In this document: in pieces, positions 10,224 to 64,000 of the stretch
How positions within the stretch are numbered: position 1 is the stretch's first letter
How the letters are laid out: each line of letters begins with the position of its first letter
Assembly (NCBI GenBank): GCA_018261895.1
Contig: JAGTRT010000008.1
Span: 1 to 64,000, forward strand
Direction of reading: 5' to 3'
From: Pseudomonadota bacterium
Lineage (GTDB): Bacteria; Pseudomonadota; Gammaproteobacteria; Burkholderiales; Rhodocyclaceae
DNA: 64,000 nt
Program-made: the position numbers and the translations under genes
Notes under the pieces: generated by a model
The model's database searches: none
What the model was told of the DNA's origin: nothing
The model's input: only the letters and a program-made list of their open reading frames with translations

Positions 10224-10231
10224 GAAAACTC

Positions 10232-41309: not shown

Positions 41310-41365
41310 GATCGTTTTCTTTCTGGGTAAAAAGGCCCGTTACTCCGGAGCGACCGGACGGGCGT

Positions 41366-41389: not shown

Positions 41390-41404
41390 GTGGCAAATTG
41401 CCGA

Positions 41405-42049: not shown

Positions 42050-42068
42050 TTTTCGGGCCTTTCATAAC

Positions 42069-42133
42069 AAAAAACCCGCCAACGGCGGGTGTATGGACGG
42101 GCTTTCGCCCAATAAAAACCGCCTTTCGGCGGT
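42069..42133 (-). terminator. Two tandem intrinsic terminators before the tail tube gene
   Basis: Minus strand: ACCGCC-GAAA-GGCGGT plus T-run (42114-42133), then ACCCGCC-GTT-GGCGGGT plus T6 (42069-42090). Both lie downstream of the 42140 gene and immediately upstream of the tail tube gene. Confidence 0.8.
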
Positions 42134-42139
42134 GATCGT

Positions 42140-43801: not shown

Positions 43802-43816
43802 GTGTCCTCGATGGAT

Positions 43817-43839
43817 GTAAAAAAACCGCCCGGAGGCGG
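43817..43839 (-). terminator. Terminator after the SGNH-hydrolase gene
   Basis: Minus strand AACCGCC-TCCG-GGCGGTT followed by T7, between the SGNH gene and the connector gene. Confidence 0.8.
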
Positions 43840-43866
43840 TTGGTTTGGATCGTTGTGAAGAGGGGA

Positions 43867-45486: not shown

Positions 45487-45498
45487 GATGTTTATTCC

Positions 45499-45735
45499 TT
45501 ACTTGGCCGCGACTTCAGCAGCGGCTTGGTTTTCGGCGGTGGCCGCTTCGTGCGTGATCACCTTCTTGTCGAGCGACTTGCGGCAATAGTCGACGGCGGC
45601 TTTCGAGCTATCGACGACACCGGATTTTTCGAGCGTTTCGGCGGTGGCGTCTTCGAAGGAGACGACGTCGTTCGGCATGTAGTTAGCGCCGTCGATCGGC
45701 AGATCGACGAGGATGCGGACTGTTTTCTTTGGCAT
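45499..45735 (-). CDS. Small head protein, possible decoration/anchor
   Basis: 78 residues (MPKKTVRILVDLPIDGANYM, VSFEDATAETLEKSGVV, Ala-rich tail). It lies right after the major capsid gene in transcription order. It is similar in pattern to the N-terminus of the SGNH protein next to it. It may bind the capsid lattice. Confidence 0.65.
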   Translation of the reverse strand: MPKKTVRILVDLPIDGANYMPNDVVSFEDATAETLEKSGVVDSSKAAVDYCRKSLDKKVITHEAATAENQAAAEVAAK

Positions 45736-45788
45736 GAGAATTCCTTTGGCGCCGGTCTGTACAACGACCGGCGCGGTTCGGTTGCTGG

Positions 45789-47003
45789 TTAGGTGGCGGA
45801 GTGCTGGTAGGTCTTCACGGCAGCGCTGTCGAGCAGGTTGCCGCCGGCACGCGCCCAGGCCAGGAAGCCGACTTGACCCTTGGAGGTATAGACGGAGTCT
45901 TCGAAGCGGAAGATGGTCACGTCCAGGGCGTCGCGGATCTTGTAGCTGTCCAGCTTGCCGTAGGCGACGGACTTGGCGTTCGCGGCCGGGGTCGGCATGT
46001 GGTTGTTGATGGTAACGTTGGAACCGAGCAGCTGGTCGAGCTTTCCACCGGCGATGGAGGCGTCGTAGGACGGAATCCAGATCGGGCGACCGGAGGTGTC
46101 CTTGATCTTGCGGGCAACCTTACGGGCGGCCTGAGACATCATCCAGCCGAGACCGCCGGCATCCTCGTAGCCGTCGTCGATGGATTCCTGCAGATCGACC
46201 AGGTCGTCGTAGATGAAGGTGACGGTCTGGCCGGTGGCACCCGTTTTGCCAACGGATGCGGCGACAGACAGGCCCCAGGGCTCACCGGTACCGGTGCCGA
46301 TGGAGAATTTCTTGTTCTGGATGCGGCCGATGCGGTCGCGAACACGGCCATAGACGAGGGCGACGATATCGACGGAGCTGTCCTGGATCAGTTCGAACGG
46401 CACAGCGATGATTTTCGAGCCGAATTTGAACGTGTTCAGCGGGACGGTGAACATGTTTGGATCCTGGCCGTTCGACTGGGTGTTTTCAGCGAGGATTTCG
46501 CCTTCTTCGGTCGAACCATCCGAACCCGGATAGGACAGCGGACCACCGGAGGCGGTCACGATGCGGCTGGCGGCGCGACGCATGCCGCCGTAGGAGGCGA
46601 TGGTTTCAACCAGTTCGCTGGCGACTTCGGTGGCGACGCTGTAGCCGCCCTGCGAGCCGGTCGTGGTCGACATGGTGTTGCGGATCTGGCGTGCCTCGTC
46701 GGCGGACAGCGAGCTGATGCCGTTGCGAATCAGCTTGTCCATGATGGTTCGATGCCCTGCCTTGTTTTCAGCGCCGGCCGGGTTGCGGCGGGCGTCGTCG
46801 AATCGCTCTTCAGCAGCGACGTTGAGCAGGCGCTGGGTGCTTTCGATCTGGCTGTCGAGACGTTCGATCTCATCGGCCATGTTGTCGAATTTGGCTTTGT
46901 CTTCCGTGGTCCAGATGGTGTCGCCCTTGTCGGCGAGTTGGTTGTTGGCTTGACGGGCGAGTTCATTGCGGCGCTCGCGCAGGGCTTGGATCGTTTGAGA
47001 CAT
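45789..47003 (-). CDS. Major capsid protein, HK97 fold
   Basis: 404 residues. An N-terminal coiled-coil delta domain (RERRNELARQANNQLADKG, IERLDSQIESTQRLL) of about 100 residues would be removed by the protease encoded upstream. The mature part starts near STTTGSQGGYSVATEV and contains the E-loop and P-domain style segments of HK97-like capsids. It is preceded by a terminator. Confidence 0.92.
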   Translation of the reverse strand: MSQTIQALRERRNELARQANNQLADKGDTIWTTEDKAKFDNMADEIERLDSQIESTQRLLNVAAEERFDDARRNPAGAENKAGHRTIMDKLIRNGISSLSADEARQIRNTMSTTTGSQGGYSVATEVASELVETIASYGGMRRAASRIVTASGGPLSYPGSDGSTEEGEILAENTQSNGQDPNMFTVPLNTFKFGSKIIAVPFELIQDSSVDIVALVYGRVRDRIGRIQNKKFSIGTGTGEPWGLSVAASVGKTGATGQTVTFIYDDLVDLQESIDDGYEDAGGLGWMMSQAARKVARKIKDTSGRPIWIPSYDASIAGGKLDQLLGSNVTINNHMPTPAANAKSVAYGKLDSYKIRDALDVTIFRFEDSVYTSKGQVGFLAWARAGGNLLDSAAVKTYQHSAT

Positions 47004-47027
47004 GGTGTTTCCTTTCGAAACAGACGT

Positions 47028-47048
47028 AAAAAAACCCGCCGAAGCGGG
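47028..47048 (-). terminator. Terminator between head protease and capsid genes
   Basis: Minus strand CCCGC-TTCG-GCGGG followed by T7. The loop is again UUCG. Confidence 0.8.
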
Positions 47049-47071
47049 CTGGATTCACTGCGCGGAGCGCG

Positions 47072-47791
47072 TCAGTAATTGGGGAGCAGCAGCCGGAGAC
47101 GACGGGCGGCGTTTTCCTTGAGGATGCTTGGATCGGGCGCTGGCGGTTCTTCCGGCTCGATCTTCGGGGCGTTCTGGTAGGCGCTGAGGTTCCAGCGGGC
47201 GGCGTTGTTCTTGGTGCCGTCGGCGCCAAAGATGGCGTCGACAAAGCCCCAATCCTTGGCTTCTTGAGCGGTGAACCAGGTTTCGCTGTTCATCCATTCG
47301 ACGACCTGATCATTGCTCTGACCGGTCTTGTTGACGTAGTCGATGGCGATGGCCTGATCGATTTTGTCGAGCAGCGTGATGGTTTCGGCAAGGTCTTCCT
47401 TGTTGCCATACACCAGTGTCCAGGCGTTGTGGATCATGAACATGGCGCCGTTGGCGATGTTCACGGTCTTGGCGGCAATGGCGACGGTGGTGGCCGCACT
47501 GGCGCAGAGGCCGTCGATCCAGACGGTGACGTTGCCATGTTGTTGGACAGCGGCAGCAATGGAGCGGCCATCGAATACGTCGCCGCCAGGGGAATTGATG
47601 CGCAGGTTGATTTCCTGGCCGTTGAGCTGGGCAATCTGCTTGACGAGCTCAGCGGCATTGACGCCCCAGTAGGAGTCGATGATGTCGTAAAGGTAGAGCG
47701 TGGTTTGCCCAGCGCCGGTGCTCTCGGCACGGACGCCAGCGGGCTGGCGTTGCGCGTTGTCACGCAGTAGTTGGAGCAGTCGCTTGTGCAT
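47072..47791 (-). CDS. ClpP-like prohead maturation protease (S49/U35-type)
   Basis: 239 residues from ATG 47791 with AAAGG about 9 bp upstream; the frame is open to 47830 but that would overlap portal more. The ClpP fold has NSPGGDVFDG (66-75), the nucleophile Ser98 in GLCASAA, and His121 in MIHNAWT. It cleaves the capsid delta domain during prohead maturation. It overlaps the end of portal by 32 bp. Confidence 0.9.
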   Translation of the reverse strand: MHKRLLQLLRDNAQRQPAGVRAESTGAGQTTLYLYDIIDSYWGVNAAELVKQIAQLNGQEINLRINSPGGDVFDGRSIAAAVQQHGNVTVWIDGLCASAATTVAIAAKTVNIANGAMFMIHNAWTLVYGNKEDLAETITLLDKIDQAIAIDYVNKTGQSNDQVVEWMNSETWFTAQEAKDWGFVDAIFGADGTKNNAARWNLSAYQNAPKIEPEEPPAPDPSILKENAARRLRLLLPNY

Positions 47792-49073
47792 CTGGCTGGC
47801 CTTTCTTTGGGTCGAATAGGGTGTCTCCACCGGGCAAGGGCGGAAGGTTCTTTATTTTTCGGATTTCGTTTGGCGTCATCCAGCCGGGCCCCTGGCTTCC
47901 GCCGATGGATTGCCGGAATGCCTCGCCTTCTGACTTGGCGTCACCGCGCAGCAGCCCCTCAAGGGAGAATTCGGTGAAGTATTTCGCGGTCCGGAAAAAC
48001 TTGCGGTTGAATTCCTGCTCGATCCGGTTTAGGTAGGGCTGGATGGTGAATTTGACGAAGCCAATGGTCAGTTGCTCGACGCCGGTACCCCAGCTGGTCG
48101 TTGTTTCATTGGCGCCGATCATGTGGGGCGGCACGCCGAATGCGCGGGCAATATCGATGACCTGGTACTTGCGCGAGTCGAGCAGCTCGGCATCGGCGGC
48201 CGTCATGCTGAGTTCACGCAGCTTGACCCCCTCTGTCAGCACCATGGGACGGCCGGCATTGTTTACGCCGGTGTAGCGTTCGGAATAGGTTCGACGTAGT
48301 TGCTCGATCTGATCATCCCTGAGCTTTCCTTCGGCCTCAAGCAGGTGCTTTGACATGGCGCCGTTGGCGTAGAACGCGCCGCTGAATTCGTCGGCAGCCA
48401 GCGCGATGCTGATGCCGTGCTGGGCGCCCAGGCGGATGGTGCTGGGGCTGCTTTCGCCATCGAACATCAAGTTTGGAACGTGAACGACGTCATCCTGATG
48501 CAGGCCGTATGGGCGCGTTCCATCAGTCGGGTTGATGTAGTAGTGCAAATAGTCGCCGACACCTTCGATATCGACTGTGTCGCGATGGTGCGGCTTGAGG
48601 CCGGTGATGACGCCGCCGCGATTGCGCTGAATTTCGATGATGGCGTCACCGCGCAGGCCGTTGCAGGCAACAATGAACTCGTAGAGGCTGGCGGCTGTCC
48701 AGCGCGGGTGCGGCTGCTCGTTGAGCAGGTACCACAGATTTGAATCGGAGACGCGACGGCGGCCGCCATCTTCGGTGCGTTCGTAAATGTGGCAGGGAAG
48801 GCTGGCAATGGATCCGGCGATCCTGCTGATGCAGGCGTAGACGGCCGATGTCCGCATGGCGGTGCGATCATTGACGGTGTGGCCGGTGATGCCCTGCGAT
48901 CCGCCAAGGAAGTCGAGGATTCTAGAATTGGAGAGTGCTATCGAATCGGTCTGGCCGTTGCTGGCGTTGACGATGCGTTCGGCTTTGCGCTTGGCCATCC
49001 AGGCGTTGAGGATGACGCTGCCCGACTGGGAGACGCGCTCGGCGTTGTACCAGGTTGCATTTTGTTGGGTCAC
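47760..49073 (-). CDS. Portal protein, HK97 family
   Basis: 437 residues. Typical segments are RTSAVYACISRIAGSIASLP, RDTVDIEGVGDYLHYY and FGVPPHMIGANETTTSWGTG. It forms the dodecameric DNA gate. Its start overlaps the terminase stop by four bases. Confidence 0.93.
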   Translation of the reverse strand: MTQQNATWYNAERVSQSGSVILNAWMAKRKAERIVNASNGQTDSIALSNSRILDFLGGSQGITGHTVNDRTAMRTSAVYACISRIAGSIASLPCHIYERTEDGGRRRVSDSNLWYLLNEQPHPRWTAASLYEFIVACNGLRGDAIIEIQRNRGGVITGLKPHHRDTVDIEGVGDYLHYYINPTDGTRPYGLHQDDVVHVPNLMFDGESSPSTIRLGAQHGISIALAADEFSGAFYANGAMSKHLLEAEGKLRDDQIEQLRRTYSERYTGVNNAGRPMVLTEGVKLRELSMTAADAELLDSRKYQVIDIARAFGVPPHMIGANETTTSWGTGVEQLTIGFVKFTIQPYLNRIEQEFNRKFFRTAKYFTEFSLEGLLRGDAKSEGEAFRQSIGGSQGPGWMTPNEIRKIKNLPPLPGGDTLFDPKKGQPDAQATAPTTA

Positions 49074-50803
49074 AGCAGTACGTATCCTTGTTCGATGGTC
49101 TGCGATTCAGGGGCTACGGCGAGCGCGCGGTTCATGGCCACGATGGTGGCGACGGCGGCGTCGATCTTGTTGGAGGCGCGGGATTTGCGCGGGAAGATGT
49201 TTTCGTTGCGATCCTCGATGCATTCGACGTTGGACATCATCCAGACGTAGGCGGGGTTGCCGTCGTGGTGGAAGCGGCCGGAATCGACCAGGGCGGCGAT
49301 TTCTTTCATGGGGTCCGACAGGTAGCGGACTTGTTGCGGTATGTCGACGACTTCGAAGCCTTCGGCGGCGAGGTTGGCGCCGAGCTGGTGACCGCCCCAT
49401 GGATCCTTGGCGTATTCGCGGATGGCGACTTTGTGGGCGGATTCGATGAGGTCTTCCTGGATGAGTTCGAGGTCGATCATGTTGCCCGGGGTGGCGATGA
49501 GGTGTTGGCTGTTGACCCAGGCTTGGTAGTGGGCGTTTTCTGGCTTTTCGACGGCGGACTGGGGGACGTAGTTGCGGCTGATGGCGTAGTAGTGCCGGCC
49601 GTCGTCGAGGTCGCGCCAGCAGAGCCAGACGGTGCTGGCGATGTCTTGTTTGCTGGCGAGGTCGCCGCCGGCGACGCAGCCGTCCCAGGCGTGGGTTTCG
49701 AAGTCGAGGTTGGGGTCTCCGGCTTGCTGCAGGTTGTAGAGGTTGAGCCAGGGTGAGGCGGCGGCGACCCAGAGGTCGAGGTGCTTGGTCTTGAAGACGT
49801 TTTGTTTGCGCGGGTCGGCGATGGCGTCGCGTTGCTGAAGGAGGAGATATTCGCCGTCGACGCTGATGCCGAAGTTTGGGTTGGCTTTGCGCAGGGCTTC
49901 TTCACTGGTCCAGTCGTCGTCGGCGTCGATGGTGAAGATGATGCCGAAGCGTTGGTCGTTGTCGATGGTGCCTTCGAGGATCTTCTGCAGCTCGACCTGG
50001 TGTAGGTAGCAGGGGCCGGATATGTCGGCACCGGCGGTGGTGATGACGAGGATGAGCGGCTGGCTGCGGGCGCCCATGCCAGTCTGCATGGTGTCGAAGA
50101 GCTCGGCGGTCTTGTGTTCGTGGTATTCATCGACGATGGCGCAGCTGGGGCTGGCGCCGTCGCCGGGTTTGCCGATGACGGGCTCAAACTTGGAGTTGTT
50201 TTCGGCGATGGAGAGGTTGGAGGCGTTGACGGTGAGGCCGTAGGCTTGGCAGAAGCGCGGTGTGGCGCGGGCCATGAGCAGGGCCGGGCGGAAGACTTCC
50301 ATGGCCTGGTCTTGCGAGGTGGCGCCGGAATAGACTTCGGCGCCGAATTCGCCGTCGACGGCGAGCATGTAGTTGCCGATGACGGCGGCCAGGGTGGATT
50401 TGGCGTTTTTGCGGGGGACGATGACGTCGGCGACACGGAAGCGGCGTTTTCCGGTGTCGCGATTGATCCAGCCGAAGATGCTGGCGAGGATGAATATTTG
50501 CCAGCGTTCGAACTTGATGAGCTGGCCTTTGGCGGCCCAGTCGCCCTTGATGTGGGGCATGAGTTCGCCGAATTTGCAGATTCGTTCGGCGGGGCGGTAG
50601 GTCTTTCCCTTGGCGTCGGTGAGTTCAGGGTTGAAGACGTAGGGCATGAGGCCGGATTCGGCGCGCGACAGGTCGTTCAGGTGACGCTGGCAGGCAAGGC
50701 GGTGCCATTTGTTGGCGATGATCTTGCCGTCGACGACGTCGCGGGCATAGGCCGTGGCGATGTCGCCGAAATGGGTTTCCGACAGGGCTACAGACCGTTC
50801 CAT
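49070..50803 (-). CDS. terL: Terminase large subunit
   Basis: 577 residues. The ATPase domain has Walker A-like RKNAKST (131-137) and a Walker B region CAIVDEYHEH; the C-terminal nuclease domain has the Asp residues of WDGCVAGGDLAS and NKIDAAVA. It belongs to the HK97/phiC31-type (Terminase_1) group. It overlaps TerS by 16 bp. Confidence 0.93.
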   Translation of the reverse strand: MERSVALSETHFGDIATAYARDVVDGKIIANKWHRLACQRHLNDLSRAESGLMPYVFNPELTDAKGKTYRPAERICKFGELMPHIKGDWAAKGQLIKFERWQIFILASIFGWINRDTGKRRFRVADVIVPRKNAKSTLAAVIGNYMLAVDGEFGAEVYSGATSQDQAMEVFRPALLMARATPRFCQAYGLTVNASNLSIAENNSKFEPVIGKPGDGASPSCAIVDEYHEHKTAELFDTMQTGMGARSQPLILVITTAGADISGPCYLHQVELQKILEGTIDNDQRFGIIFTIDADDDWTSEEALRKANPNFGISVDGEYLLLQQRDAIADPRKQNVFKTKHLDLWVAAASPWLNLYNLQQAGDPNLDFETHAWDGCVAGGDLASKQDIASTVWLCWRDLDDGRHYYAISRNYVPQSAVEKPENAHYQAWVNSQHLIATPGNMIDLELIQEDLIESAHKVAIREYAKDPWGGHQLGANLAAEGFEVVDIPQQVRYLSDPMKEIAALVDSGRFHHDGNPAYVWMMSNVECIEDRNENIFPRKSRASNKIDAAVATIVAMNRALAVAPESQTIEQGYVLL

Positions 50804-53387: not shown

Positions 53388-53698
53388 CAGTTCCACTGGT
53401 TTTCTCCTGTAGGTTCCATACCTTCCAGACGTATGGCAGAGGTATGGAACCCTAAAAGCCTTGCTGTGTGGCCTTCTTCCATACCTTCCATACCTTCCAT
53501 ACCTAAATTGATACCTGTACGGGGGTGCACGCGCACGTGTACGCGTGTGTGTGCGCGCCCGCCTACATGTGCGCAGGAGAAACAGGTATGGAAGGTATGG
53601 AAGGTATGGAACACCATTGCAGCACAACGCTTTCCAGCTTCCATACCTTCGACATAGGTATGGAACAGGTATGGAAACTGCGGTTTAGAAGCCGGCAT
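53387..53698 (-). CDS. Repeat-bearing small ORF across the 9-bp array
   Basis: 103 residues from ATG 53698, which has a strong AGGAGG 5 bp upstream inside the end of the helicase gene; the stop overlaps the next ATG. The 9-bp array encodes FHTFHTFHT in one half and GMEGMEGME in the other, because the units are inverted. The signals favour translation, yet the array may be primarily a DNA element. No homologue is recognised. Confidence 0.4.
   Translation of the reverse strand: MPASKPQFPYLFHTYVEGMEAGKRCAAMVFHTFHTFHTCFSCAHVGGRAHTRVHVRVHPRTGINLGMEGMEGMEEGHTARLLGFHTSAIRLEGMEPTGENQWN
53414..53676. repeat. Inverted array of 9-bp iteron-like repeats, candidate replication origin
   Basis: The unit TTCCATACC occurs five times in one orientation (53414, 53477, 53486, 53495, 53639) and six times inverted as GGTATGGAA (53441, 53585, 53594, 53603, 53657, 53668). 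Two abutting triplets (53477-53503 and 53585-53611) face each other across about 80 bp that contain a GTGCACGCGCACGTGTACGC-type alternating stretch. It lies next to the primase-helicase gene, the usual place for a phage origin. Confidence 0.7.
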
Positions 53699-56210
53699 AT
53701 TCCCCTCCTGTTTTGGGTGCGTTGGTCGGCTCGTTGGCTGGGCCGTCGTCAAGCATTGATGGCGGCCGATACCAGAACCGCGTCATGCCGTTGCGCTTCT
53801 CGATCTTCTTGCACCCGAGCTTGCGCAATGCCGTTCCTACGCGCGTTTGCAGGTCTCTCGTGAGCTTCGACGCATCCATGCTTCGACCATCGACGCTGAG
53901 ACCTTCCATGACGGCTTGCGCGATCGAGAAATCAGCCACCTGGCTATAGACCCAATCGTGCAGCGCATCGATCAGACTGTCCTGCTGCTCCCGCTTCAGC
54001 TGCTCAGGATCGAAGTACTTCTTCTGCTCGTCCCAGATAGGCCAGTAGCGATGCCCGGCGTCGTAATACGCCATGGCCTCGGCGAACAGCTGCTCGCGTG
54101 CCTCAATCAATCCCTGCACGTCGAGAACGCCCACCGACACCGGCCAGAACCGCCGGCCGCCTGTGGGGTCTTTGTTCCACTCGTGCTCGTTGGTCGTGCC
54201 AGCAAAGACAAGACGCCGAGGAAGCTTGACGAACGATGTCGCGAACGGCACCCGGAACTCATCGAAACGTCGGGACAGAAAAGCCTTCTGCCGCTTTTCG
54301 TCCGAGCGCGCCATGGCGCCCATTTCGGCAATCTCAAGCAGCCACTTGCCCTGCAGCGCCATCATGGCGTCCTTGTTGCTCAGGTCGAGTTCGACGTCGC
54401 TGAACCAGGCATCACCCACCAGCGCGGCGAGGATCGTCGATTTGCTCTTGCCCTGCTCCCCTTCGAGAATCAGGCTGTAGTCGAACTTGCACCCCGGCTC
54501 CATGGCCCGGGCGATCATGCCCATCAGGAACCAGCCACCCGACAGGCGCAGGTATTCCTTCTGATCCGGCGACGATGGCGTCGCTCCCAGATACCGCTCA
54601 AGCCATCCGCCGATGCGCTTCTCGCCATCCCATGCAGGAAGGCCACGCAGCCACAGCACCAGCGGATTGAACGCGTGATTTCGCGCGACCAGATCGACCG
54701 CCTGGGCAGTGATCTCTTTACCCGGCGCAAAACGGTACCGCCGCGTGATCCAGATCGACAAATGAACCGTGTCCTGATCCGTCCATTCACCCGCCTCGCC
54801 ATTCACGAACGGCGGCGGCCGGCGCTTCACCACGCGCTGGGCGTGCTCGTCGAAGGCAATGATCCCCTCCCAGAGCGAATCATTCACCAGCACGTCATAC
54901 ACATTCGCCACGCAGCGCTCGATATCGCCCTTCTGCGTCTTCAGCAACGAGTAGTACCAGCTTTGCCTATCTTCCCCCGCGGCAGCATCTTTAGCGGTAG
55001 AAATGGTTTCCGAAGGTGTTTCCGGCTGGTCTCTCTGCCACACCGCCGAATTGTCACGCAGCCATGAAAGGCTCGTCTCTTCGTCAATATGGCCAATCTG
55101 GCCAGCCGCGCACATGTCGGCAACGTCCCAGCCATCCGGAAGAGTGCCCGGTTCCGGAAGATTGACCATCCAGACCTTGCACTTCTGCCCCTCAAGCCGC
55201 TCGGCAATCTTCAGCGCCGCCTTCAGTCCGGCCTGCTTATCCGCTGCCAGGTAAGGCTTCGACTCCGGATCGACGCCCTGCTCCTTCTCATCCTTGCTCA
55301 GGCGCTCGCGCTTCGAGTCGGCATCGGGCCAGATCATGACCTTGCGACCGATCAACGGTGACCAGTCTGCCTTGTGCTCGGCATTGGTGCCGCCGCACCA
55401 GGTCAGCACGGCCAGCGACGGGAAGAGGCTCTGCGCCACATCCGCGCACTTCTCGCCCTCGACGATCAACACAGTCGCATCCGGCATCGCCGCCAACCGG
55501 TCCAGACCATACAAAGGCCGCGGCTCGGCAAAGTGCATCCAGTGCCACTCGCTCTTGCCCGTCCGTGAATTCGTTGCCCAGCACACCGGAAGCACTTCCT
55601 TGCCGCCGTCGCTCGTCTTGAACCGGAACACGTACCCCAGCGTCTCCCCATCCGCGCCGCGGTAATGCCACAGCATTTCCGGCAGCCCGCGCTTGATGTG
55701 CGCCTTGGGCGCTTCAGGCGCATCCGCCGGCGCCTGGCGCTGCGGAACCCACTCCGACACCGCCTTCTTCGGTGCCTCGTTCTCGGCTGCAGCCTTGGCC
55801 GATGGGGAGGACTTCTCTGCCGGGGGGGTTGCAGAGTCGGGTGGCATTGCGGCACGGCTGCCGCCACCCGTGCGGGGGGGTAACTGTATACTCAGACGCG
55901 CGGCCACGTCATAGGCCGCCTCGATCTGATCGTTGTTGTGGAACAGGTAGGCACACAGCGAGACGAGATCCTTGCCGGCATCGCCCGCCGCGAAATCGCC
56001 CCACATGCCGTTCGTCATGTTGATCGAGAACGACCCCTCGCGATTGTCGCTTCGCGTCGGATTGACGGACTTGTACTCGTACCCGACCTTGTGCCCGTTC
56101 GGCAACCATTCGCCGAGCAGCTCGTCGACCGCATTCAGCGCCCGGGCCGCCAGCATGCCAAAATCGATTGGTTCTCGCCGGCCCCCGCCGGAATTCCCCC
56201 GCTTGGCCAT
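53685..56210 (-). CDS. VapE-like primase-helicase
   Basis: 841 residues. The N-terminal 100 residues resemble a DNA-primase Zn-less entry domain (YEYKSVNPTRSDNREGSFSIN); residues near 220-330 form a Toprim-like segment (VLIVEGEKCADVA, MIWPDADS). The C-terminal half is a VirE/VapE SF3-type ATPase with Walker A LEGEQGKSKST and the sensor FAGTTNEHEWNKDPTGGRRFWPV. It would prime and unwind phage DNA at the adjacent iteron array. It overlaps the CII-like gene stop. Confidence 0.88.
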   Translation of the reverse strand: MAKRGNSGGGRREPIDFGMLAARALNAVDELLGEWLPNGHKVGYEYKSVNPTRSDNREGSFSINMTNGMWGDFAAGDAGKDLVSLCAYLFHNNDQIEAAYDVAARLSIQLPPRTGGGSRAAMPPDSATPPAEKSSPSAKAAAENEAPKKAVSEWVPQRQAPADAPEAPKAHIKRGLPEMLWHYRGADGETLGYVFRFKTSDGGKEVLPVCWATNSRTGKSEWHWMHFAEPRPLYGLDRLAAMPDATVLIVEGEKCADVAQSLFPSLAVLTWCGGTNAEHKADWSPLIGRKVMIWPDADSKRERLSKDEKEQGVDPESKPYLAADKQAGLKAALKIAERLEGQKCKVWMVNLPEPGTLPDGWDVADMCAAGQIGHIDEETSLSWLRDNSAVWQRDQPETPSETISTAKDAAAGEDRQSWYYSLLKTQKGDIERCVANVYDVLVNDSLWEGIIAFDEHAQRVVKRRPPPFVNGEAGEWTDQDTVHLSIWITRRYRFAPGKEITAQAVDLVARNHAFNPLVLWLRGLPAWDGEKRIGGWLERYLGATPSSPDQKEYLRLSGGWFLMGMIARAMEPGCKFDYSLILEGEQGKSKSTILAALVGDAWFSDVELDLSNKDAMMALQGKWLLEIAEMGAMARSDEKRQKAFLSRRFDEFRVPFATSFVKLPRRLVFAGTTNEHEWNKDPTGGRRFWPVSVGVLDVQGLIEAREQLFAEAMAYYDAGHRYWPIWDEQKKYFDPEQLKREQQDSLIDALHDWVYSQVADFSIAQAVMEGLSVDGRSMDASKLTRDLQTRVGTALRKLGCKKIEKRNGMTRFWYRPPSMLDDGPANEPTNAPKTGGEYAGF

Positions 56211-57228: not shown

Positions 57229-57660
57229 ATGGAAAAGACATACGAAATGCGCCGCCAACACCTAAAAACCCTCGTTGACAAACTGGGGAGAGGAGGTATT
57301 GCCGCCGTCGCCAAAAAGATCGATGTCAATGCGAGCTACCTGTCACGCTGCCTATATCCGCCAGAAAAAGCCGGACGGAAAAATATCGGCGACGAGATCG
57401 CTACCAGGCTGGACGAGCATTTCCCGTCGTGGAAAGGCGCCTCAATAACCTCGTTGCATAGTCCAGCCGCCGCCTACTCCGTCGAACCCACACGGGACAG
57501 CATTTCACCCGCCGCCGTAATGTTCGGCCATGTGTTCGACAAGCTGAGCCCTGCAGACCAGTTCGACCTTTGGGTTGATCTGAAAAAACGGGTAATGAAC
57601 TACCCGGAGGTAGAGCGGGAATACTTAGCCGATATCGTGAAATATTTAACACTAATCTGA
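57229..57660 (+). CDS. CI-like phage repressor, short form
   Basis: 143 residues. The N-terminal HTH (GGIAAVAKKIDVNASYLSRCL) is followed by a short C-terminal helical part (SPADQFDLWVDLKKRVM). It has no LexA/S24 autoproteolysis domain, so induction would not be by simple RecA-mediated cleavage. It is divergent from the Cro-like gene across O1/O2. Confidence 0.75.
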   Translation: MEKTYEMRRQHLKTLVDKLGRGGIAAVAKKIDVNASYLSRCLYPPEKAGRKNIGDEIATRLDEHFPSWKGASITSLHSPAAAYSVEPTRDSISPAAVMFGHVFDKLSPADQFDLWVDLKKRVMNYPEVEREYLADIVKYLTLI

Positions 57661-58862: not shown

Positions 58863-59045
58863 ATGACCACCGCCGAAGCGCTCGACAAGGCCCGCGACAT
58901 TGCGCGCGGATCGACGTGTTTCCTGATGCCCGTCGGCGGTGTTTTCAAAATCTGCCGTCGCGTTGACCGCCGCGTCATCACCCTCGGCAAACGAACCGAC
59001 GCCAGCCAGGCACTAAGCCTCCTGCGCCGGGTATGCAATCACTAG
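58863..59045 (+). CDS. Small hypothetical phage protein
   Basis: 60 residues (MTTAEALDKARDIARGSTCF). It follows the 22-residue peptide by one base. Basic and helical; no family recognised. Confidence 0.6.
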   Translation: MTTAEALDKARDIARGSTCFLMPVGGVFKICRRVDRRVITLGKRTDASQALSLLRRVCNH

Positions 59046-59054
59046 GAGGCGACC

Positions 59055-59291
59055 ATGGAACTCGACCCGAAATATCAATGCTGTGAATGCGGCGACATTC
59101 ACGACGACGAAGACGATGCGCGCGAATGCTGCGCACCGCGCATCAAGGAAGTTTTCGTGTGCCCTCAATGCAAAGAAGTTTTCGACGACGAAGACGAAGC
59201 CATCGAATGCTGCGATCTCCCCGAAGGGTTTGAGATCAGGCCAAGCCTGATTGAGCTTGAGGCTGCTGGACAAATGAGGCTGCTGCCATGA
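59055..59291 (+). CDS. Double zinc-ribbon-like phage protein
   Basis: 78 residues containing two similar halves, each with C-x2-C followed by an acidic stretch and CC (CCECGDIHDDEDDARECC and CPQCKEVFDDEDEAIECC). A tandem duplication of a metal-binding knuckle is clear. A strong AGGAGG lies upstream of the ATG. Role unknown. Confidence 0.7.
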   Translation: MELDPKYQCCECGDIHDDEDDARECCAPRIKEVFVCPQCKEVFDDEDEAIECCDLPEGFEIRPSLIELEAAGQMRLLP

Positions 59292-59488
59292 TCACCGCCC
59301 AAATCATCCACGACAGCGCCCTGCTCGAAGAAGTCGCCGTTGCCGCCGCCAAACGCGGATGGCACATCATCAGCAACGGCAAGCGCGCCGTTATCAGTCC
59401 CATCATCCCCGCCGGCTGGACGAAGATCGCCGTCAAGGTCAAGACCGCCCGCAGCGCCACCCTGGAGGCCCAGCCATGCGCCGCCTGA
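59288..59488 (+). CDS. Small hypothetical phage protein
   Basis: 66 residues (MITAQIIHDSALLEEVAVAA); four-base overlap with the zinc-ribbon gene and overlap with the next start. Family not recognised. Confidence 0.6.
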   Translation: MITAQIIHDSALLEEVAVAAAKRGWHIISNGKRAVISPIIPAGWTKIAVKVKTARSATLEAQPCAA

Positions 59489-59745
59489 TCGACTGGCTTT
59501 ACCGGACCCTGTTCGGCATTCACGTCCGCACCCACGAGCAGCACATCGCCGACCTGCGCATTCTGCTCGACGACCTCTACCTGCAGGCGCAAACCACGGA
59601 CGCGGAAATCGAAATCGTCACCCGCAAGCTCCTCGACGCCAAGGAAAGGCGCGACGAAGCCGCCCGCAACGCCGGCAAATTCGTCGAGCGCCGCAAATCG
59701 ATGATCGACGACCGCTTCCCAGACCCAATTCCCCGCTCCTACTGA
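59476..59745 (+). CDS. Helical phage protein with possible membrane-anchor start
   Basis: 89 residues from ATG 59476 (MRRLIDWLYRTLFGIHVRTH) with an amphipathic start and a long helical, charged body (TRKLLDAKERRDEAARNAGK). GGAGG lies upstream of the ATG. Unknown function. Confidence 0.6.
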   Translation: MRRLIDWLYRTLFGIHVRTHEQHIADLRILLDDLYLQAQTTDAEIEIVTRKLLDAKERRDEAARNAGKFVERRKSMIDDRFPDPIPRSY

Positions 59746-59752
59746 GGACATC

Positions 59753-60466
59753 ATGATCCTAGACATTCCCGTCCTGACCGCCATCAAAAAACTGGGCGTC
59801 GCAACCTATTCCCAGCTTGAGGCCGAAACAAAGGAAAAGCTCAATAAGCTGCGCTGGTGCTGCAACGACCTGAAGGCCCGTCAACTCGTCAAGCAGACCG
59901 AAGACCCGACCGACAACGAAGTCGCGTGGAAGATCACAGCGAAGGGAGATCAGCACCTATTCGCCCAGCAACAATCCGACATTGAAGCGGCCGAACTCGA
60001 AAAACATAAAGCGAAGCACCTGAAAAAACCCGGCAAGGCCACCCCGGCCAAGGCGGCAAAAGGACACGTCGGAAGAGCGTGTGCAACCCCAGCGGCCGGA
60101 GGGGCATATATCAGCCGCAGCACGGAATCGGATCGCCTCGTTGAGGCAGATAGCACCTCCACCGAGGCCCGTGCCGTTGTCGAGACGCAGGCAGCCGGTT
60201 TGGCGGCTGAGGAAAGCGCTTTGGCGAGCGCCTACCGCCCTGCAGTCTCCGACGTGAAATCCGACATCGAGATCATCGCCGATCAACTGTTCCAGGTTTC
60301 CGAAGACGAGCCGCCGATTGAGTTCGCCGATCCGCAGCTGTTCGCCATGATCAGCATCGACGGCACGATGCACATCGCGTTCGCGTGGAAAGAAATCAAC
60401 CTTCCCGCCTTCGCCGTCCGAGAACTAGCCGACTTTATCGGCGACACCGAAGCAGCGTGGGACTGA
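59753..60466 (+). CDS. Winged-helix-like phage protein
   Basis: 237 residues. The N-terminal 70 residues (LTAIKKLGVATYSQLEAETK, LKARQLVKQTEDPTDNEVAW) look like a winged helix, followed by an Ala/Lys-rich linker and an acidic C-terminal domain. It is probably DNA-binding; the target is unknown. Confidence 0.6.
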   Translation: MILDIPVLTAIKKLGVATYSQLEAETKEKLNKLRWCCNDLKARQLVKQTEDPTDNEVAWKITAKGDQHLFAQQQSDIEAAELEKHKAKHLKKPGKATPAKAAKGHVGRACATPAAGGAYISRSTESDRLVEADSTSTEARAVVETQAAGLAAEESALASAYRPAVSDVKSDIEIIADQLFQVSEDEPPIEFADPQLFAMISIDGTMHIAFAWKEINLPAFAVRELADFIGDTEAAWD

Positions 60467-60468
60467 TC

Positions 60469-60780
60469 ATGCCCACCCAACGCTTCCGACACCCTGCCGG
60501 CGCCTTCGAGATCACCAGCCTGCCCGGCCAGCCACAAGTCGCCATCTGTCACAGCTTCTTCGTCCGCGAAACCGATCGCGGCCGCGGCAAGTCCCACGAG
60601 ATCAAGGCCCAACAACGCCACACCCTGCAAAGCCTGCAGTACGACTACGCCGTCTGCACTGTATCCGGCAACAACCACGCCCAGAAAGCCGTGCTCAGCC
60701 AGGGCGGCTGGAAAAAGCTGACCGAGTTTTACAACCACCGCAACGCCGAATTCACCGAGACCTGGGGGACCACCCCGTGA
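60469..60780 (+). CDS. GNAT-like acyltransferase-fold phage protein
   Basis: 103 residues; FVRETDRGRGKSHEIKAQQ fits the acetyl-CoA pyrophosphate loop pattern (R/Q-x-x-G-x-G) and the later SGNNHAQKAVLSQGGW fits the end of a GNAT core. It is shorter than most GNATs, so enzymatic activity is not assured. It lies directly before the DGR. Confidence 0.6.
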   Translation: MPTQRFRHPAGAFEITSLPGQPQVAICHSFFVRETDRGRGKSHEIKAQQRHTLQSLQYDYAVCTVSGNNHAQKAVLSQGGWKKLTEFYNHRNAEFTETWGTTP

Positions 60781-60827
60781 CCGTCCTCGCTCTCATTGCC
60801 CTCATCAACCTTTTCATCAACCCATAG
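60777..60827 (+). CDS. Possible 16-residue hydrophobic peptide
   Basis: A GTG start overlapping the previous stop (GTGA), product VTVLALIALINLFINP, ending 7 bp before the first DGR target gene. It is hydrophobic throughout. It may just be a coupling leader for the target gene. Confidence 0.3.
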   Translation: MTVLALIALINLFINP

Positions 60828-60834
60828 GTGACCC

Positions 60835-61197
60835 ATGCAACAACTCACACTACCCCCGCTCGCCGAAGGCGAGACCTACATCGGCGCGATCGGTGACGCA
60901 TCAGGAAATCTGCATCACGTCATCCTGCTGCCCGGCGACAACGACGAAGCCACCCACGAAGCCGCACTCGAATGGGCCAAGAGCATCGGCGGCGACCTGC
61001 CCACCCGCATCGAGCAGGCCATGCTCTGGGCAAACCACCGCGACCTGTTCCAGAAGGACTGGTACTGGAGCAACGAAATCCACCACCGCGAGTCAGGCTG
61101 GGCCTGGTATCAGGACTTCGACATCGGCGGCCAGAACCACCACGGCTACCGCAGCTACGGGTTGCGCGCTCGTGCCGTCCGCAGATTGCCCATTTAA
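60835..61197 (+). CDS. DGR target protein 1 (C-type-lectin/DUF1566-like)
   Basis: 120 residues with AGGTG before the ATG. The second half has the DUF1566/formylglycine-enzyme-like lectin pattern LPTRIEQAMLW, WYWSNE, SGWAWYQDF and LRARAVRRL. The last 34 or so codons are the variable repeat VR1 (61089-61188), which carries substitutions at template adenines. No signal peptide or transmembrane segment is visible. It is expressed from the early plus-strand operon, unlike tail-fibre DGR targets such as Mtd. The ligand is unknown. Confidence 0.88.
   Translation: MQQLTLPPLAEGETYIGAIGDASGNLHHVILLPGDNDEATHEAALEWAKSIGGDLPTRIEQAMLWANHRDLFQKDWYWSNEIHHRESGWAWYQDFDIGGQNHHGYRSYGLRARAVRRLPI
61089..61188 (+). 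repeat. DGR variable repeat VR1
   Basis: 100 nt aligned with the template repeat at 62232-62328. The flanks CGAGTCAGGCTGGGCCTGG and GGGTTGCGCGCTCGTGCCGT are identical. Differences are 12 substitutions, all at positions where the template has A, all in AAC codons, plus one extra codon in the run of AAC codons. The 3' identical block would be the mutagenic-homing initiation region. Confidence 0.93.
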
Positions 61198-61221
61198 TCA
61201 TTCATCCATTTCGAGACCGTC

Positions 61222-61695
61222 ATGACCACCATTACGCTTGATGAAATCAAGGCCCAGCATGCCAAAGTGGCCGAAATGATCACTGCCTTTGAGCTGCAGC
61301 AGGCACCATCTGCCATGTTCATCCCCGAGGCCACCATCAGCCTTTCCCCGGGCGAACACTACGCCGGCCTCGTTCTCGGCAAAGACGGAGAGCCGAGCTA
61401 TCACCTGGTGCTGCTCCCCGGCCAGGCCGACGACATCACCTGGGAAAAGGCCGAAGAATGGGCCGCCAAACAGGGCGGAAAACACACATCCAGCCTGCCC
61501 ACCCGCCGCGAGCAGTCGCTGCTCTTCGCCAACCTCAAGGAAGAATTCGAGGAGCGCGCCTACTGGTCATGCGAGGCTCACGAAAGCGAGTCAGGCTGGG
61601 CCTGGTATCAGGACTTCTGCTACGGCCTCCAGTACGGCATCAACCGCGACCACGGGTTGCGCGCTCGTGCCGTCCGCAGATTGGTCATTGAGTAA
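61222..61695 (+). CDS. DGR target protein 2 (C-type-lectin/DUF1566-like)
   Basis: 157 residues; same C-terminal architecture as target 1 (LPTRREQSLLFANL, AYWSCEAHESESGWAWYQDF, LRARAVRRLVIE) with an N-terminal extension (MTTITLDEIKAQHAKVAEMI) that is helical. VR2 occupies 61587-61683. Its start is 24 bp after the stop of target 1. The two targets are paralogues that diverged before or apart from VR diversification. Confidence 0.88.
   Translation: MTTITLDEIKAQHAKVAEMITAFELQQAPSAMFIPEATISLSPGEHYAGLVLGKDGEPSYHLVLLPGQADDITWEKAEEWAAKQGGKHTSSLPTRREQSLLFANLKEEFEERAYWSCEAHESESGWAWYQDFCYGLQYGINRDHGLRARAVRRLVIE
61587..61683 (+). repeat. DGR variable repeat VR2
   Basis: 97 nt, the same length as the template. 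It has 12 substitutions, all at template adenines within the ten AAC codons. Third-position C is always kept, so no stop codons can arise. Flanks are identical to the template. Confidence 0.94.
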
Positions 61696-61713
61696 TTTAT
61701 CAATTTAATCAGC

Positions 61714-62088
61714 ATGGCCACCCACACCCATCTTCCCATTTACAAGGTCGCCTACGACCTGCTCGATGTCGTCACGAATCTCGTCAAGAACATGCAACGT
61801 GATTTCAAGCGTTCCATCGGGGATAAGATCAGCGCCGAGTGCATTGAGATCACGGTGCTGATCTTCCGGGCCAATGTCGCCCAGGACAAGGCACCGCACC
61901 TGCTGGAACTGATCGAGCGCCTGCAAGTCGCCGAACTGATGCTTCGTTTGTCCATGGACAAACGCCTCATCTCCAAGGCGGCCTACGCTCAGGCAATCGA
62001 ACTCACCACCAGCATCGGGAAGCAGGCCAACGGGTGGCGCCGCGCCGCACATCGCCCGCTTCATGGAGGTCAAGGCCGCCATGACTGA
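61714..62088 (+). CDS. avd: Avd-type DGR accessory protein
   Basis: 124 residues, a four-helix-bundle protein of the bAvd type (LPIYKVAYDLLDVVTNLVKN, GDKISAECIEITVLIFRAN, HLLELIERLQVAELMLRLSM, AIELTTSIGKQANGWRRA). Avd proteins form a pentameric barrel that binds the DGR reverse transcriptase and template RNA. It lies between target 2 and the template repeat, the usual DGR order. Confidence 0.9.
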   Translation: MATHTHLPIYKVAYDLLDVVTNLVKNMQRDFKRSIGDKISAECIEITVLIFRANVAQDKAPHLLELIERLQVAELMLRLSMDKRLISKAAYAQAIELTTSIGKQANGWRRAAHRPLHGGQGRHD

Positions 62089-63433
62089 GCGATCATTCAA
62101 TCTGGTCGTGCCGCTGGCTCACAAGGCCACCGACATGCGCACCACGGACACCGCCGGCAGCATGCCGGGCCGGTCCGGCGCAGTTTCCAGGCTGAACACT
62201 CGGCCGGGCGACGTGGAAAGCACGATGGGTACGAGTCAGGCTGGGCCTGGTATCAGAACTTCAACAACGGCAACCAGAACAACAACAACCGCAACAACGG
62301 GTTGCGCGCTCGTGCCGTCCGCAGATTGGAAAGCGCCCGCTGATTTCACCTTCGCAGAGCTTGCGCAAGCCTATTTCGATTGCCGCCGCACCAAGCGCAA
62401 CAGCGCCAGCGCGCTGGCCTTCGAAGAGCGCCTTGAGCACAACCTGCGCACCCTCTACGACGAACTGCACGCAGGCACCTACACGCCCGGAAGCAGCATC
62501 TGCTTCGCCATCACCCGCCCAAAGCCCCGCGAAGTGTGGGCAGCGACGTTCCGCGACCGCATCGTGCATCTCCTGCTGCACAACCGAATCGGCCCGCGCT
62601 TCTACGCCCGATTCATCGCCGACTCCTGCGCCTGCATCCCGGGCCGTGGAACCCTCTATGGCGCCGAACGACTCGAGGCCAAGGTACGCAGTATCACCCA
62701 GAACTGGACGCGGCCAGCCTATTACCTGAAGCTCGATCTGGCCAACTTCTTCGTCAGCATCGACAAACGCATCCTGCACCGCCTGCTCGCCCGCCGCATC
62801 AACGAGCCATGGTGGCTGACGCTGACCGAAACCATCCTTTTCCACGACCCGCGCCAGAACTACACCCTGCGTGGCAACCCGGCCGACCTCGAGCGCGTCC
62901 AGCCACACAAGCGCCTGACCAGCCAGCCCGCACACCTTGGCCTGCCAATAGGCAACCTCAGCAGCCAGTTTTTCGCCAACGTCTATTTGGACGTATTAGA
63001 CCAATTTGCGAAGCACTATTTGCACGCCAAGCACTACATCCGCTACGTCGACGACTTCGTGCTCCTGCACGAATCCGCCCAATGGCTCAACGACGCCAAG
63101 GACCAGACCGAACACCTGCTCGCCACCCAACTGGCCGCCAGAATCAACCCGAGCAAGACCATCCTGCAACCCATCGACCGCGGCATCGACTTTGTCGGCC
63201 ATGTCATCAAGCCACACCGCCGGACGCTGCGCCGCAGGACATTCAACGACGCCCTGCACCGCCTCAAAACCATTCCCGAAACCGACCTTTTCGAGACCGG
63301 AAACAGCTACTTCGGCCTGCTACGACAAGCCACCCACAGCCACCACGACCGCGCCCAGATCGCCAACATCCTGCGCAGCCGTGGCCACAGCATCAAATCA
63401 GACCTGACTAAAACATATAGGAAATCAGCATGA
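62081..63433 (+). CDS. DGR reverse transcriptase
   Basis: The conserved RT core begins near 62340. Motif A LDLANFFVSID is at 62732-62764, the DGR-typical LPIGNLSSQ at 62942-62968, and the catalytic YVDD at 63044-63055; a thumb-like C-terminus follows. The frame is open through the template repeat as far as 62063, so the start is unclear: ATG 62081 (overlapping the avd stop), ATG 62225 or GTG 62312 are possible. The enzyme copies TR RNA with adenine-directed errors into VR cDNA. The C-terminus is basic (RSRGHSIKSDLTKTYRK). Confidence 0.93.
   Translation: MTERSFNLVVPLAHKATDMRTTDTAGSMPGRSGAVSRLNTRPGDVESTMGTSQAGPGIRTSTTATRTTTTATTGCALVPSADWKAPADFTFAELAQAYFDCRRTKRNSASALAFEERLEHNLRTLYDELHAGTYTPGSSICFAITRPKPREVWAATFRDRIVHLLLHNRIGPRFYARFIADSCACIPGRGTLYGAERLEAKVRSITQNWTRPAYYLKLDLANFFVSIDKRILHRLLARRINEPWWLTLTETILFHDPRQNYTLRGNPADLERVQPHKRLTSQPAHLGLPIGNLSSQFFANVYLDVLDQFAKHYLHAKHYIRYVDDFVLLHESAQWLNDAKDQTEHLLATQLAARINPSKTILQPIDRGIDFVGHVIKPHRRTLRRRTFNDALHRLKTIPETDLFETGNSYFGLLRQATHSHHDRAQIANILRSRGHSIKSDLTKTYRKSA
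62232..62328 (+). repeat. DGR template repeat (TR)
   Basis: 97 nt, identical at both flanks to VR1 and VR2, with ten AAC codons in the VR reading frame (one, two, one, four and two, separated by TTC, GGC, CAG and CGC). This Asn-AAC design is typical of DGR templates: A-to-N changes reach many residues and no stop. It lies between avd and the RT core, on the same strand. Confidence 0.94.
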
Positions 63434-63681
63434 ACTTCACCGGCCAACCCATCCCCCTACCGCTCGACCCGACCATAAACCGCTGCCTGGCGCACGGCGA
63501 TCACGTCGGCGAATGGTGCGAGCGCAGCGAAACCTGCGCATGCCACCAAACCATCAAGCACGACCGCGGAATCTACCCGCCGGCCGCGTTCCGAAAGTGC
63601 ACGACCGACCACTTTGCCGCCTATCTTCCGCTCGAAGGCTTCCCGATTGACGACAACGAGGATGAAGGGAGGCCAGCGTGA
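63430..63681 (+). CDS. Hypothetical phage protein downstream of the RT
   Basis: 83 residues (MNFTGQPIPLPLDPTINRCL) with several Cys/His residues (HGDHVGEWCERSETCACHQ) that could bind metal. Its ATG overlaps the RT stop (ATGA). It is not a known DGR component. Confidence 0.6.
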   Translation: MNFTGQPIPLPLDPTINRCLAHGDHVGEWCERSETCACHQTIKHDRGIYPPAAFRKCTTDHFAAYLPLEGFPIDDNEDEGRPA

Positions 63682-64000
63682 GCCATACGAAAGAGCCTTG
63701 GAGCTACGGCGAGGACAACGACGGATGGTATGTAGAAAAAGACGGTGTGCAGATTGCTCACGGACTTTCAGAACAGGACGCCCGCCGAATCGTCGCCTGC
63801 GTGAATGCTTGCGCTGGAATGGATGACCCTGAAGGAAAACTCAGTGAAATGCGCCACATGATAACTGACATGCATATTCGGGCCATTAACGCAGAGAAGA
63901 ATCTCGACAGCTACAAAGACGCAGCAGAGTACAACAAGCGTAGGGCTGAGGATGCAGAGAAGAAGCGCGACGATCTGCTGGCGGCGCTTGTCAATTCTCG
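63678..64000 (+). CDS. Hypothetical phage protein, truncated by the window
   Basis: Open from GTG 63678, which overlaps the previous stop (GTGA), to the window edge, about 107 codons with no stop. It begins VSHTKEPWSYGEDNDGWYVE and becomes helical and charged (KNLDSYKDAAEYNKRRAEDA). Codon use is less GC-rich than in the DGR genes. Function unknown. Confidence 0.6.
   Translation, partial: MSHTKEPWSYGEDNDGWYVEKDGVQIAHGLSEQDARRIVACVNACAGMDDPEGKLSEMRHMITDMHIRAINAEKNLDSYKDAAEYNKRRAEDAEKKRDDLLAALVNS

Follow-up and report, generated by a model that had tools for sequence, protein, structure and literature searches.

Genes and repeats of the retroelement

Analysis of the window, that is, the whole 64,000-nt stretch of DNA studied, revealed a diversity-generating retroelement (DGR) whose parts lie contiguously on the + strand in the order target gene 1, target gene 2, avd, template repeat (TR) and reverse transcriptase (RT). 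A preliminary description of this DNA had called the DGR complete and apparently intact and had placed it in a prophage. Judged from the sequence, both statements hold, since the ORFs are open, the RT motifs are intact and the parts are in order, and phage genes are present in the window with an integrase nearby. The − strand carries a phage structural block at 36188–50803, including tape measure (36188–40582), portal (47760–49073) and large terminase (49070–50803) genes, and a primase/helicase gene at 53685–56210 (phrog_15962, E=6.7e-107). On the + strand, a prophage repressor-like transcriptional regulator is encoded at 57229–57660 (phrog_5736, E=3.2e-10), and the integrase is found at contig position 66171–67121, just outside the window. 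The preliminary description had the DGR parts right and missed this repressor and integrase neighbourhood of the targets, together with the RT-15 RNA, the TR-closing helix and the position of the TR within the RT frame, which are described below.

Target gene 1 (60835–61197, +) encodes 120 aa and is C-type-lectin-like by a weak, Lcl_C/DUF1566-like match (PF07603, E=0.0051, under the family cut-off; phrog_4245, E=1.5e-6). Target gene 2 (61222–61695, +; 157 aa) also matches PF07603 under the cut-off (E=2e-4), and its structure model (pLDDT 91.5) has as top PDB match the Lcl C-terminal domain 8q4e (E=8.8e-5). A C-type lectin fold is therefore predicted by the model for target 2 and via similarity alone for target 1. 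Each gene has a 3′ variable repeat (VR), as previously claimed, VR1 in target 1 and VR2 in target 2. PMC6642488 gives DUF1566 as the commonest Pfam domain among DGR targets; the present targets differ from such DUF1566/Lcl_C-type targets in being small and stand-alone, with PF07603 matches under the cut-off. Gene position gives no support to a tail-fibre role for them.

The accessory variability determinant gene, avd (61714–62088, +), was also recognized correctly before; it matches phrog_3206 (E=2.9e-29) and Pfam bAvd (E=4.2e-11), and reaches 47.7 of the 80 bits set as cut-off for NCBIfam DivGenRetAVD. The RT domain (about 62345–63433, +; phrog_1423, E=2.5e-113) resembles the BPP-1-type RT 8ub7 (E=4.8e-32) and carries the motifs IGNLSSQ and YVDD, the former fitting the DGR rule (I/V/L)GxxxSQ given in PMC3521204. 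The RT phylogeny proposed earlier as a check placed it in a clade of 24 DGR RTs (support 100/96), from which three group II intron and five retron-like RTs stand apart.

The TR (62232–62328, +) is AAC-rich. Its flanks and those of VR1 (61089–61188, +) and VR2 (61587–61683, +) are identical up to CAGATTG, and the centres differ from it by 10 substitutions in VR1 and 12 in VR2, all at template A, plus one 3-nt insertion within the AAC run of VR1; the A-only pattern and the inserted codon had been noted before. Either loss of a codon from the TR or a slip of the RT may account for the insertion. Among 71 TR/VR pairs from 32 loci, with five near-duplicate loci left out, differences fall at 893 of 2029 template A sites vs 8 of 4835 other sites, more than expected by chance; the ratio is partly built in because the pair-finding scan tolerated A mismatches and penalised others. 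Rescans of six loci tolerating C, G or T instead of A gave fewer matches and lower scores, with several mismatches at other bases. All VR differences in five pairs of close relatives (14, 19, 13, 32 and 25) fall at template A, and the TR is unchanged; the relatives in two of these pairs are near-identical, and their differences are confined to the VRs (14/14 and 19/19). The expected VR change with a constant TR is thus seen across close relatives rather than in the window's own population, and the spread over non-A positions that would speak against a DGR is absent from these related genomes. Across 30 natural versions of target 2, variation is greatest at the ten AAC positions (2.87 bits vs 0.30 outside the VR). 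We predict that the two lectin-like target genes are kept under rewriting by the DGR.

The RT-15 leader and the helix closing the template

The TR is preceded by a 5′ leader, the 183-nt RT-15 RNA (RF03018; 62050–62232, +; 178.5 bits, gathering score 82). Its core (62106–62225) is closed by helix 3, formed by 62106–62111 with 62220–62225 and paired in 100% of cells across 40 loci. The Rfam output for RF03018 states no role, and in Pseudomonas phage Cruim01 the RNA carries the annotation misc_RNA. RT-15 was found in 36/36 loci fetched by RT homology and in 5/9 further loci. Among 399 genomes of the order, it also exceeded the cut-off in eight others, and in 8/8 of these it is followed by a TR. 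In 50/50 above-cut-off matches examined, an adenine-mutated TR starts ≤5 nt from the RT-15 end, and no TR was found behind four sub-cut-off matches. RT-15 can therefore be used as a TR finder.

Our analysis also showed a helix that is absent from the RF03018 model. Its 5′ strand (TTCAATCTG, 62096–62104, +) is unpaired in the Rfam model, and its 3′ strand (CAGATTGGA, 62322–62330, +) consists of the TR 3′ end and the bases that follow. Between this helix and the core stands a junction G (62105, +), identical in 40/40 loci, which is a candidate cDNA start. The closing helix is paired in 86.5% of cells over the 40 loci, and RT-15 including it comprises 58 pairs with 95.0% of cells paired. It shows 40 both-sided changes vs 11.5 on shuffling (0/500 shuffles reach 40), and sliding the strands leaves only 3–17. 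The four pairs outside the invariant hexamer are formed in 120/160 cases vs 92.9 shuffled (0/20000), and a downstream hexamer scan for partners of the RT-15 strand ranked the TR 3′ end best (92% vs 78% for the runner-up). In a sister clade, the top helix of an open scan joins the leader to the bases directly after the TR, in unrelated sequence, with 52 both-sided cells vs 20.9 shuffled (0/5000). The loci are kin, so these shuffle tests overstate certainty. A covarying closing helix is nevertheless shown, by sequence comparison, in two clades, and the compensatory base changes in the 40 loci indicate that the TR is held as a loop. The exceptions are L004 and L028, which keep 5/10 and 6/10 pairs; the sixth pair fails in 13/40 loci and the tenth in 21/40.

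The first fold returned by RNAalifold paired UCUGGU of RT-15 with ACCAGA in mid-TR. We did not adopt it as the principal fold, as its six pairs show no both-sided change, it breaks in L024 and L034, and the TR 3′ end scored higher in the open scan; the RT-15 bases may alternate between the two partners. The folding energy of the window RNA as a whole was no better than that of shuffles (z −0.66) and was not taken as evidence for structure.

Downstream of the TR, no conserved element was found by codon identity, which is 1.7–2.4 times expectation along the TR and falls to about 1 after it; the high values within the TR are also expected because it matches the VRs. Given this drop, there is no support for an RNA of the BPP-1 type concealed within the RT coding region behind the TR. 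A search for RF03022 (Phage_DGR RNA) in 59000–64000 at E up to 1 was likewise negative.

The RT reading frame probably begins at an in-frame ATG within RT-15 and runs through the TR (62135–63433, +). Such an ATG is present in 29/37 loci and in 2/8 further loci, and is absent or out of frame in 8/37 and 6/8, respectively. The 3′ half of the TR is open in the RT frame and would usually be translated with the RT. TR and RT ORF overlap in one frame in 44/45 loci; in L057 the TR is in a different frame and the sole ATG is downstream of it. Because the ATG in RT-15 is often missing and L057 is an exception, a TR read in the RT frame is the usual arrangement and not an essential one. That all RTs are translated across the entire TR can also be dismissed, as other loci start in the TR, upstream of it, or possibly after it (L034, L037, L057).

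Comparison with known systems

The DGR of BPP-1 (mtd, avd, TR, brt) shares with the present one a target with a 3′ VR, Avd, TR and DGR RT on one strand, and A substitutions. PMC12875486 describes a structured RNA beside the TR of BPP-1 that recruits RT-Avd and primes. That RNA (RF03022), however, lies 3′ of the TR, whereas RT-15 lies 5′ of it and the window has no RF03022 behind its TR; conversely, RT-15 was not found in BPP-1 at the gathering cut-off. The spacing is reversed accordingly: avd to TR is 0 nt and TR to brt 144 nt in BPP-1, compared with 143 nt from avd to TR and about 16 nt from TR to RT homology here. The BPP-1 target is a tail protein, while the window targets are of 120 and 157 aa and are located between repressor and integrase.

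As outlined in PMC6868368, retrons have a 5′ RNA before the template, a joining stem and an RT gene downstream. The window resembles this msr-msd layout in its 5′ structured RNA, in a stem to the template 3′ end, in a conserved G that immediately follows the 5′ stem strand and in the downstream position of the RT gene. The likeness is one of layout only: the RT here groups with DGR RTs and outside the retron-like ones, and the cDNA would carry mutations at A and be directed to target genes. In the DGRs of DiGReF structural group 3, according to the group's description in PMC3521204, there is an overlap between the TR and the end of the RT ORF; the present loci differ in the one-frame overlap (44/45), the leader RNA and the closing helix. 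As to Rfam, the RNA belongs by score to the same family, RF03018, and differs in its placement as a DGR template leader and in the extra helix.

Proposed mechanism and alternative explanations

Taken together, we consider it probable that this is a prophage DGR whose TR is looped between RT-15 and a helix with the TR 3′ end, that the RT starts copying there, and that it puts adenine-mutated copies into the two small lectin-like genes. One transcript would span avd to RT, and RT together with Avd would bind RT-15, which likely tells the RT where copying starts. The cDNA would be primed at or beside the closing helix, with G62105 as candidate start point, would copy the TR loop and halt at the RT-15 core helix, and would then, in mutated form, replace the target 3′ ends. 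The closing helix predicts both cDNA ends, with the helix setting the start and the RT-15 core the stop, much as in retrons, if this model holds. Since the RT message would begin with the very RNA in which the template is held, its translation and its copying would be mutually exclusive, a possible limit on the RT dose.

A little less likely than not is the wider idea that DGRs exist in two mirror-image forms, with RT-15 phages and the sister clade forming a large branch that is retron-like in that G62105 starts the cDNA and its end is set by the leader core. In that form the leader would pair back onto the TR 3′ end, and the RNA encoding the RT would therefore be a self-priming, self-limiting template. 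For RT-15, which is listed with no role, our results offer a testable function. The DGR RNA core has been known from one phage, BPP-1, and our results suggest another arrangement, in which the scaffold flanks the template on the other side. This bears on what DGR RTs need to start and stop, on the relation between DGRs and retrons, and on the RNA for a targeted diversifier.

A rival explanation, with a chance a little short of even, is BPP-1-like priming, in which RT-15 is cut near GGUC-purine and its free 3′ end, kept on the TR 3′ end by the closing helix, is extended; chemistry is the sole difference from our preferred explanation. Conserved GUGGUCAGC of BPP-1 resembles the UGGUC-purine of RT-15 (the base after UGGUC is G in 36, A in 3 and U in 1 of the 40 loci), and the one match of at least 7 pairs between the BPP-1 spacer and the TR 3′ end directly precedes CAGCC. 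This single match is weak, because longer matches to that TR end (10 pairs, of which two are G-U) lie on the upstream side in BPP-1 and the spacers of other phages also carry 7–8-pair matches, and we did not accept it as proof of a common priming site. The primer strand here, moreover, is on the opposite side of the TR from that in BPP-1. It is unlikely that RT-15 does no more than control RT translation or transcription, with the closing helix belonging to an RNA switch that governs the RT start codon and copying beginning elsewhere, for example at a nick in the target beside the VR 3′ end. The likely RT start codon inside RT-15 (29/37 loci) and the common 3′ flank of TR and VR would fit such control, but the RT-15 end meets the TR start in 50/50 loci, the TR lies inside the helix and lends it its own 3′ end, and L005, L029, L030, L036 and L057, with RT start codons only in or after the TR, keep RT-15 and most of the helix. 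In the codon test, too, no conservation was seen on the 3′ side of the TR, which in BPP-1 is occupied by the spacer RNA.

Less likely still is a decayed DGR, kept by hitch-hiking and inactive in this genome. Frameshifted VRs in some relatives (L009, L027) and the draft state of the host genome (85% complete) lend this some weight; the open ORFs, the intact RT motifs, an RT-15 score far above the cut-off and VR substitutions all at A argue against it.

Codon indels as a regular DGR product were rejected, since the VR indels of L009 (+2) and L027 (+1), which are frameshifts or assembly faults, are not codon-sized. Codon-sized indels were seen in VR1 of the window (+3) and in L011 (−3).

Components and prophage setting of the retroelement

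Our analysis identified two short target genes, avd (accessory variability determinant), a template repeat (TR) and a reverse transcriptase (RT) on the + strand at 60835-63433, in agreement with the preliminary description of a complete diversity-generating retroelement (DGR) whose two targets bear variable repeats (VR1 and VR2). These repeats had been said to differ from TR at template adenines plus one codon, and indeed VR1 showed 10 substitutions and VR2 showed 12, each at a template adenine, with one additional codon in VR1. The avd gene was backed by PHROG and Pfam profiles, yet was under the NCBIfam cut-off. The RT, described as DGR-type with LPIGNLSSQ and YVDD motifs, contains IGNLSSQ and YVDD and matches the RT of 8ub7 (E=4.8e-32). 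Our tree placed it inside the DGR clade (support 100/96), separate from three group II and five retron-like RTs. The 17 RTs of its kind that were included formed a single clade (93/95), and among the tree members the Bacteroides phage F2 RT was its nearest kin (100/99, with several long branches). The DGR itself is a further example of a known system.

The proposed prophage location was also borne out. Tape measure, portal, terminase and primase genes lie on the - strand of the window, and a repressor-like gene (57229, + strand) is followed by the DGR and then by an integrase (contig 66171-67121). Between DGR and integrase there is a phosphoadenosine phosphosulfate reductase gene (L038:162-1067, that is, contig 64162-65067; phrog_424, E=2.9e-47). 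By the look of their sequences, the left-side ORFs at 4481-13651 resemble a bacterial phenol-degradation cluster.

A repressor or integrase was present within the displayed stretch in six annotated relatives (L031-L035 and L037), and no gene named as tail or baseplate was found within 6 kb of the RT in these six, although hardly any genes of L035 carry names and the upstream sequence shown for L032 is limited to 3 kb. Tail or baseplate genes adjoin the DGR in BPP-1, L065, L067, L068 and L070, five of the seven other phage DGRs with annotation; the gene names of L064 and L066 do not allow this to be judged. The genomic place of the targets suggests that they may have a role other than tail fibre. 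Target 2 was predicted with high confidence (pLDDT 91.5) to have a C-type lectin fold, and the best match of the model was the C-terminal domain of Legionella Lcl.

Adenine-directed variation in related elements

A scan that favoured A mismatches gave 71 TR/VR pairs from 32 loci, in which differences occupied 893 of 2029 template A sites versus 8 of 4835 other sites. The pattern proposed as support for a population of the strain, A-specific VR change with a constant TR, was seen between closely related loci in five pairs. All 14 differences between L032 and L039 (over 18,943 bp) and all 19 between L005 and L029 (over 3,328 bp) fall inside VRs at template A. Less tidy pairs had 13 of 21 (L005/L030), 32 of 41 (L029/L030) and 25 of 97 (L034/L037) differences in VRs, where they fall at template A without exception. 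TR was identical within each of the five pairs. It differed at one position between L031 and L032, which are 88% identical; L002/L006 and L004/L019 showed no differences over the part compared. For target 2, the ten AAC positions averaged 2.87 bits, compared with 0.27 at other VR positions and 0.30 outside the VR, among 30 versions (the window's own and 29 of 1076 listed relatives).

Several further observations were made. L032 (OK094664, Shewanella phage QDWS) and L039 (OP650936, 'Hujiaoplasma phage zrk29-1') show no difference outside VRs in the 18,943 bp that we compared; they look like two deposits of one phage, and the Tenericutes host given for L039 is doubtful. VR length departs from that of TR, always in the A-rich core, in the window (61089-61188, +3 nt), L011 (2630-2745, -3 nt), L009 (4740-4860, +2 nt) and L027 (5245-5365, +1 nt). 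Elements L026, L012, L018, L031 and L033 have up to five VRs each, some 4-9 kb away from TR, and one of them, in phage Magia, belongs to a gene with a lectin fold close to the repressor. The VR of P0026, a target 2 relative, reads YQNFNNGNQNNNNRNN, the same as an unmutated TR would, so it may be a target in a reset or not-yet-mutated state. L041, L046 and L048, from one relative (G031) in the same genus, match target 2, avd and two more VR-like pieces, not the query's RT part; they are possibly a DGR remnant.

The RT-15 leader and the closing helix

The structured RNA RT-15 (Rfam RF03018) was found at 62050-62232, directly 5' of TR; its score was 178.5 bits, the gathering threshold being 82. 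It was present in 36/36 loci fetched by RT homology (including a few duplicates) and, at gathering, in five of nine further loci from a later fetch. When we searched 399 genomes of the order for the RNA first, nine exceeded the cut-off, one being this genome; all eight others had an A-directed TR directly after RT-15, and none of four sub-cut-off hits had a TR. A search of 369 genomes of the class gave no match except this genome. In 50/50 above-cut-off loci, the end of RT-15 and the start of TR are no more than 5 nt apart. Our literature search, of limited coverage, found no link between RT-15 and DGRs. The leader-first RNA layout is what is new here, provisionally, because the papers likeliest to settle this link lie outside the literature searched.

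RT-15 bases 62096-62104, unpaired in the Rfam model, pair with 62322-62330, which cover the 3' end of TR and the nucleotides right after it (+ strand). Across 40 distinct loci, this closing helix was paired in 340 of its 400 cells (shuffle mean 304, maximum 325 among 20000 shuffles), a comparison that overstates certainty because the loci are related. Slid versions, which meet this objection in part, pair less; both-sided changes numbered 40 cells versus 11.5 shuffled and 3-17 when slid. The outer four pairs, in otherwise unconserved sequence past TR, were kept in 120 of 160 cells (shuffle mean 92.9, maximum 110). Among downstream hexamer segments the best partner was the TR 3' end (92%; runner-up 78%), and the minimum-energy fold of the window RNA includes the helix; its total fold energy was not better than shuffles. 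The sixth pair is broken in 13/40 loci and the tenth in 21/40, and L004 and L028 keep five and six of ten pairs.

The most likely mechanism is that RT and Avd would bind the RT-15 leader, and the closing helix would place the template 3' end beside G62105, a base identical in 40/40 loci, where copying would begin. Errors at A would arise as the TR loop is copied, the core helix of RT-15 would halt copying at the TR 5' end, and the cDNA would take the place of the VRs. In retrons, according to the review PMC6868368, a stem links the 5' RNA with the template 3' end, and the priming guanosine lies in the 5' strand of this stem or immediately after it. The closing helix and G62105 resemble these, and priming may be retron-like or from cut RNA.

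The 3' half of TR is stop-free and in the same phase of the RT frame in 44/45 loci (near-duplicates counted); in the exception, L057, TR is not in the usual phase and the sole ATG lies after TR. An in-frame ATG occurs mid-RT-15 in 29/37 loci, plus 2/8 in a second set. Codon identity over expectation in 32 loci was 1.7-2.4 across TR, where constraint is also expected because TR matches the VRs, and 0.9-1.3 beyond, falling at the TR end. Overlap of TR with the RT ORF is known from a structural group of DGRs, for which leader and helix do not appear in the part of the description in PMC3521204 that we consulted.

Comparison with BPP-1 and the sister clade

The RNA layout is the mirror of that in phage BPP-1. 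There, TR lies directly after avd, with a spacer of 144 nt before brt, whereas in the window 143 nt separate avd from TR and RT homology begins about 16 nt after TR. When numbering begins at the annotated end of TR, position 56 of the BPP-1 spacer is the A of CAGCC, and the priming base goes by the name A56. One 7-pair match of the TR 3' end with the spacer lies directly 5' of CAGCC; it deserves little weight because longer matches exist on the upstream side and other spacers give 7-8-pair matches. The spacer is occupied by the Phage_DGR RNA (RF03022), and our Rfam search found no RT-15 in BPP-1. According to PMC12875486, this spacer recruits RT-Avd, and priming is by an internal adenine.

Among relatives of the F2 RT, 80 of 85 were kept. 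Once duplicates, the nine further loci (five of them RT-15) and five loci dropped by hand (same contig or insufficient upstream DNA) had been set aside, 60 loci of this clade were tested, and TR was found in 52. Anchor motif and flank were present in 48, of which 34 were left when rows >93% identical had been dropped. In an open scan of leader and TR for covarying helices, the top rank went to a 9-bp helix between the leader and the bases directly after TR, with 52 both-sided cells versus 20.9 shuffled (maximum 41 of 5000) and 5-22 when slid. This sequence does not resemble RT-15; the layout is identical. A structured 5' leader with closing helix occurs in phage DGRs L064 and L069 and in sister-clade loci among L085-L157; in the 13 loci tested (11 of the sister clade, plus L064 and L069), no Rfam family matched at gathering.
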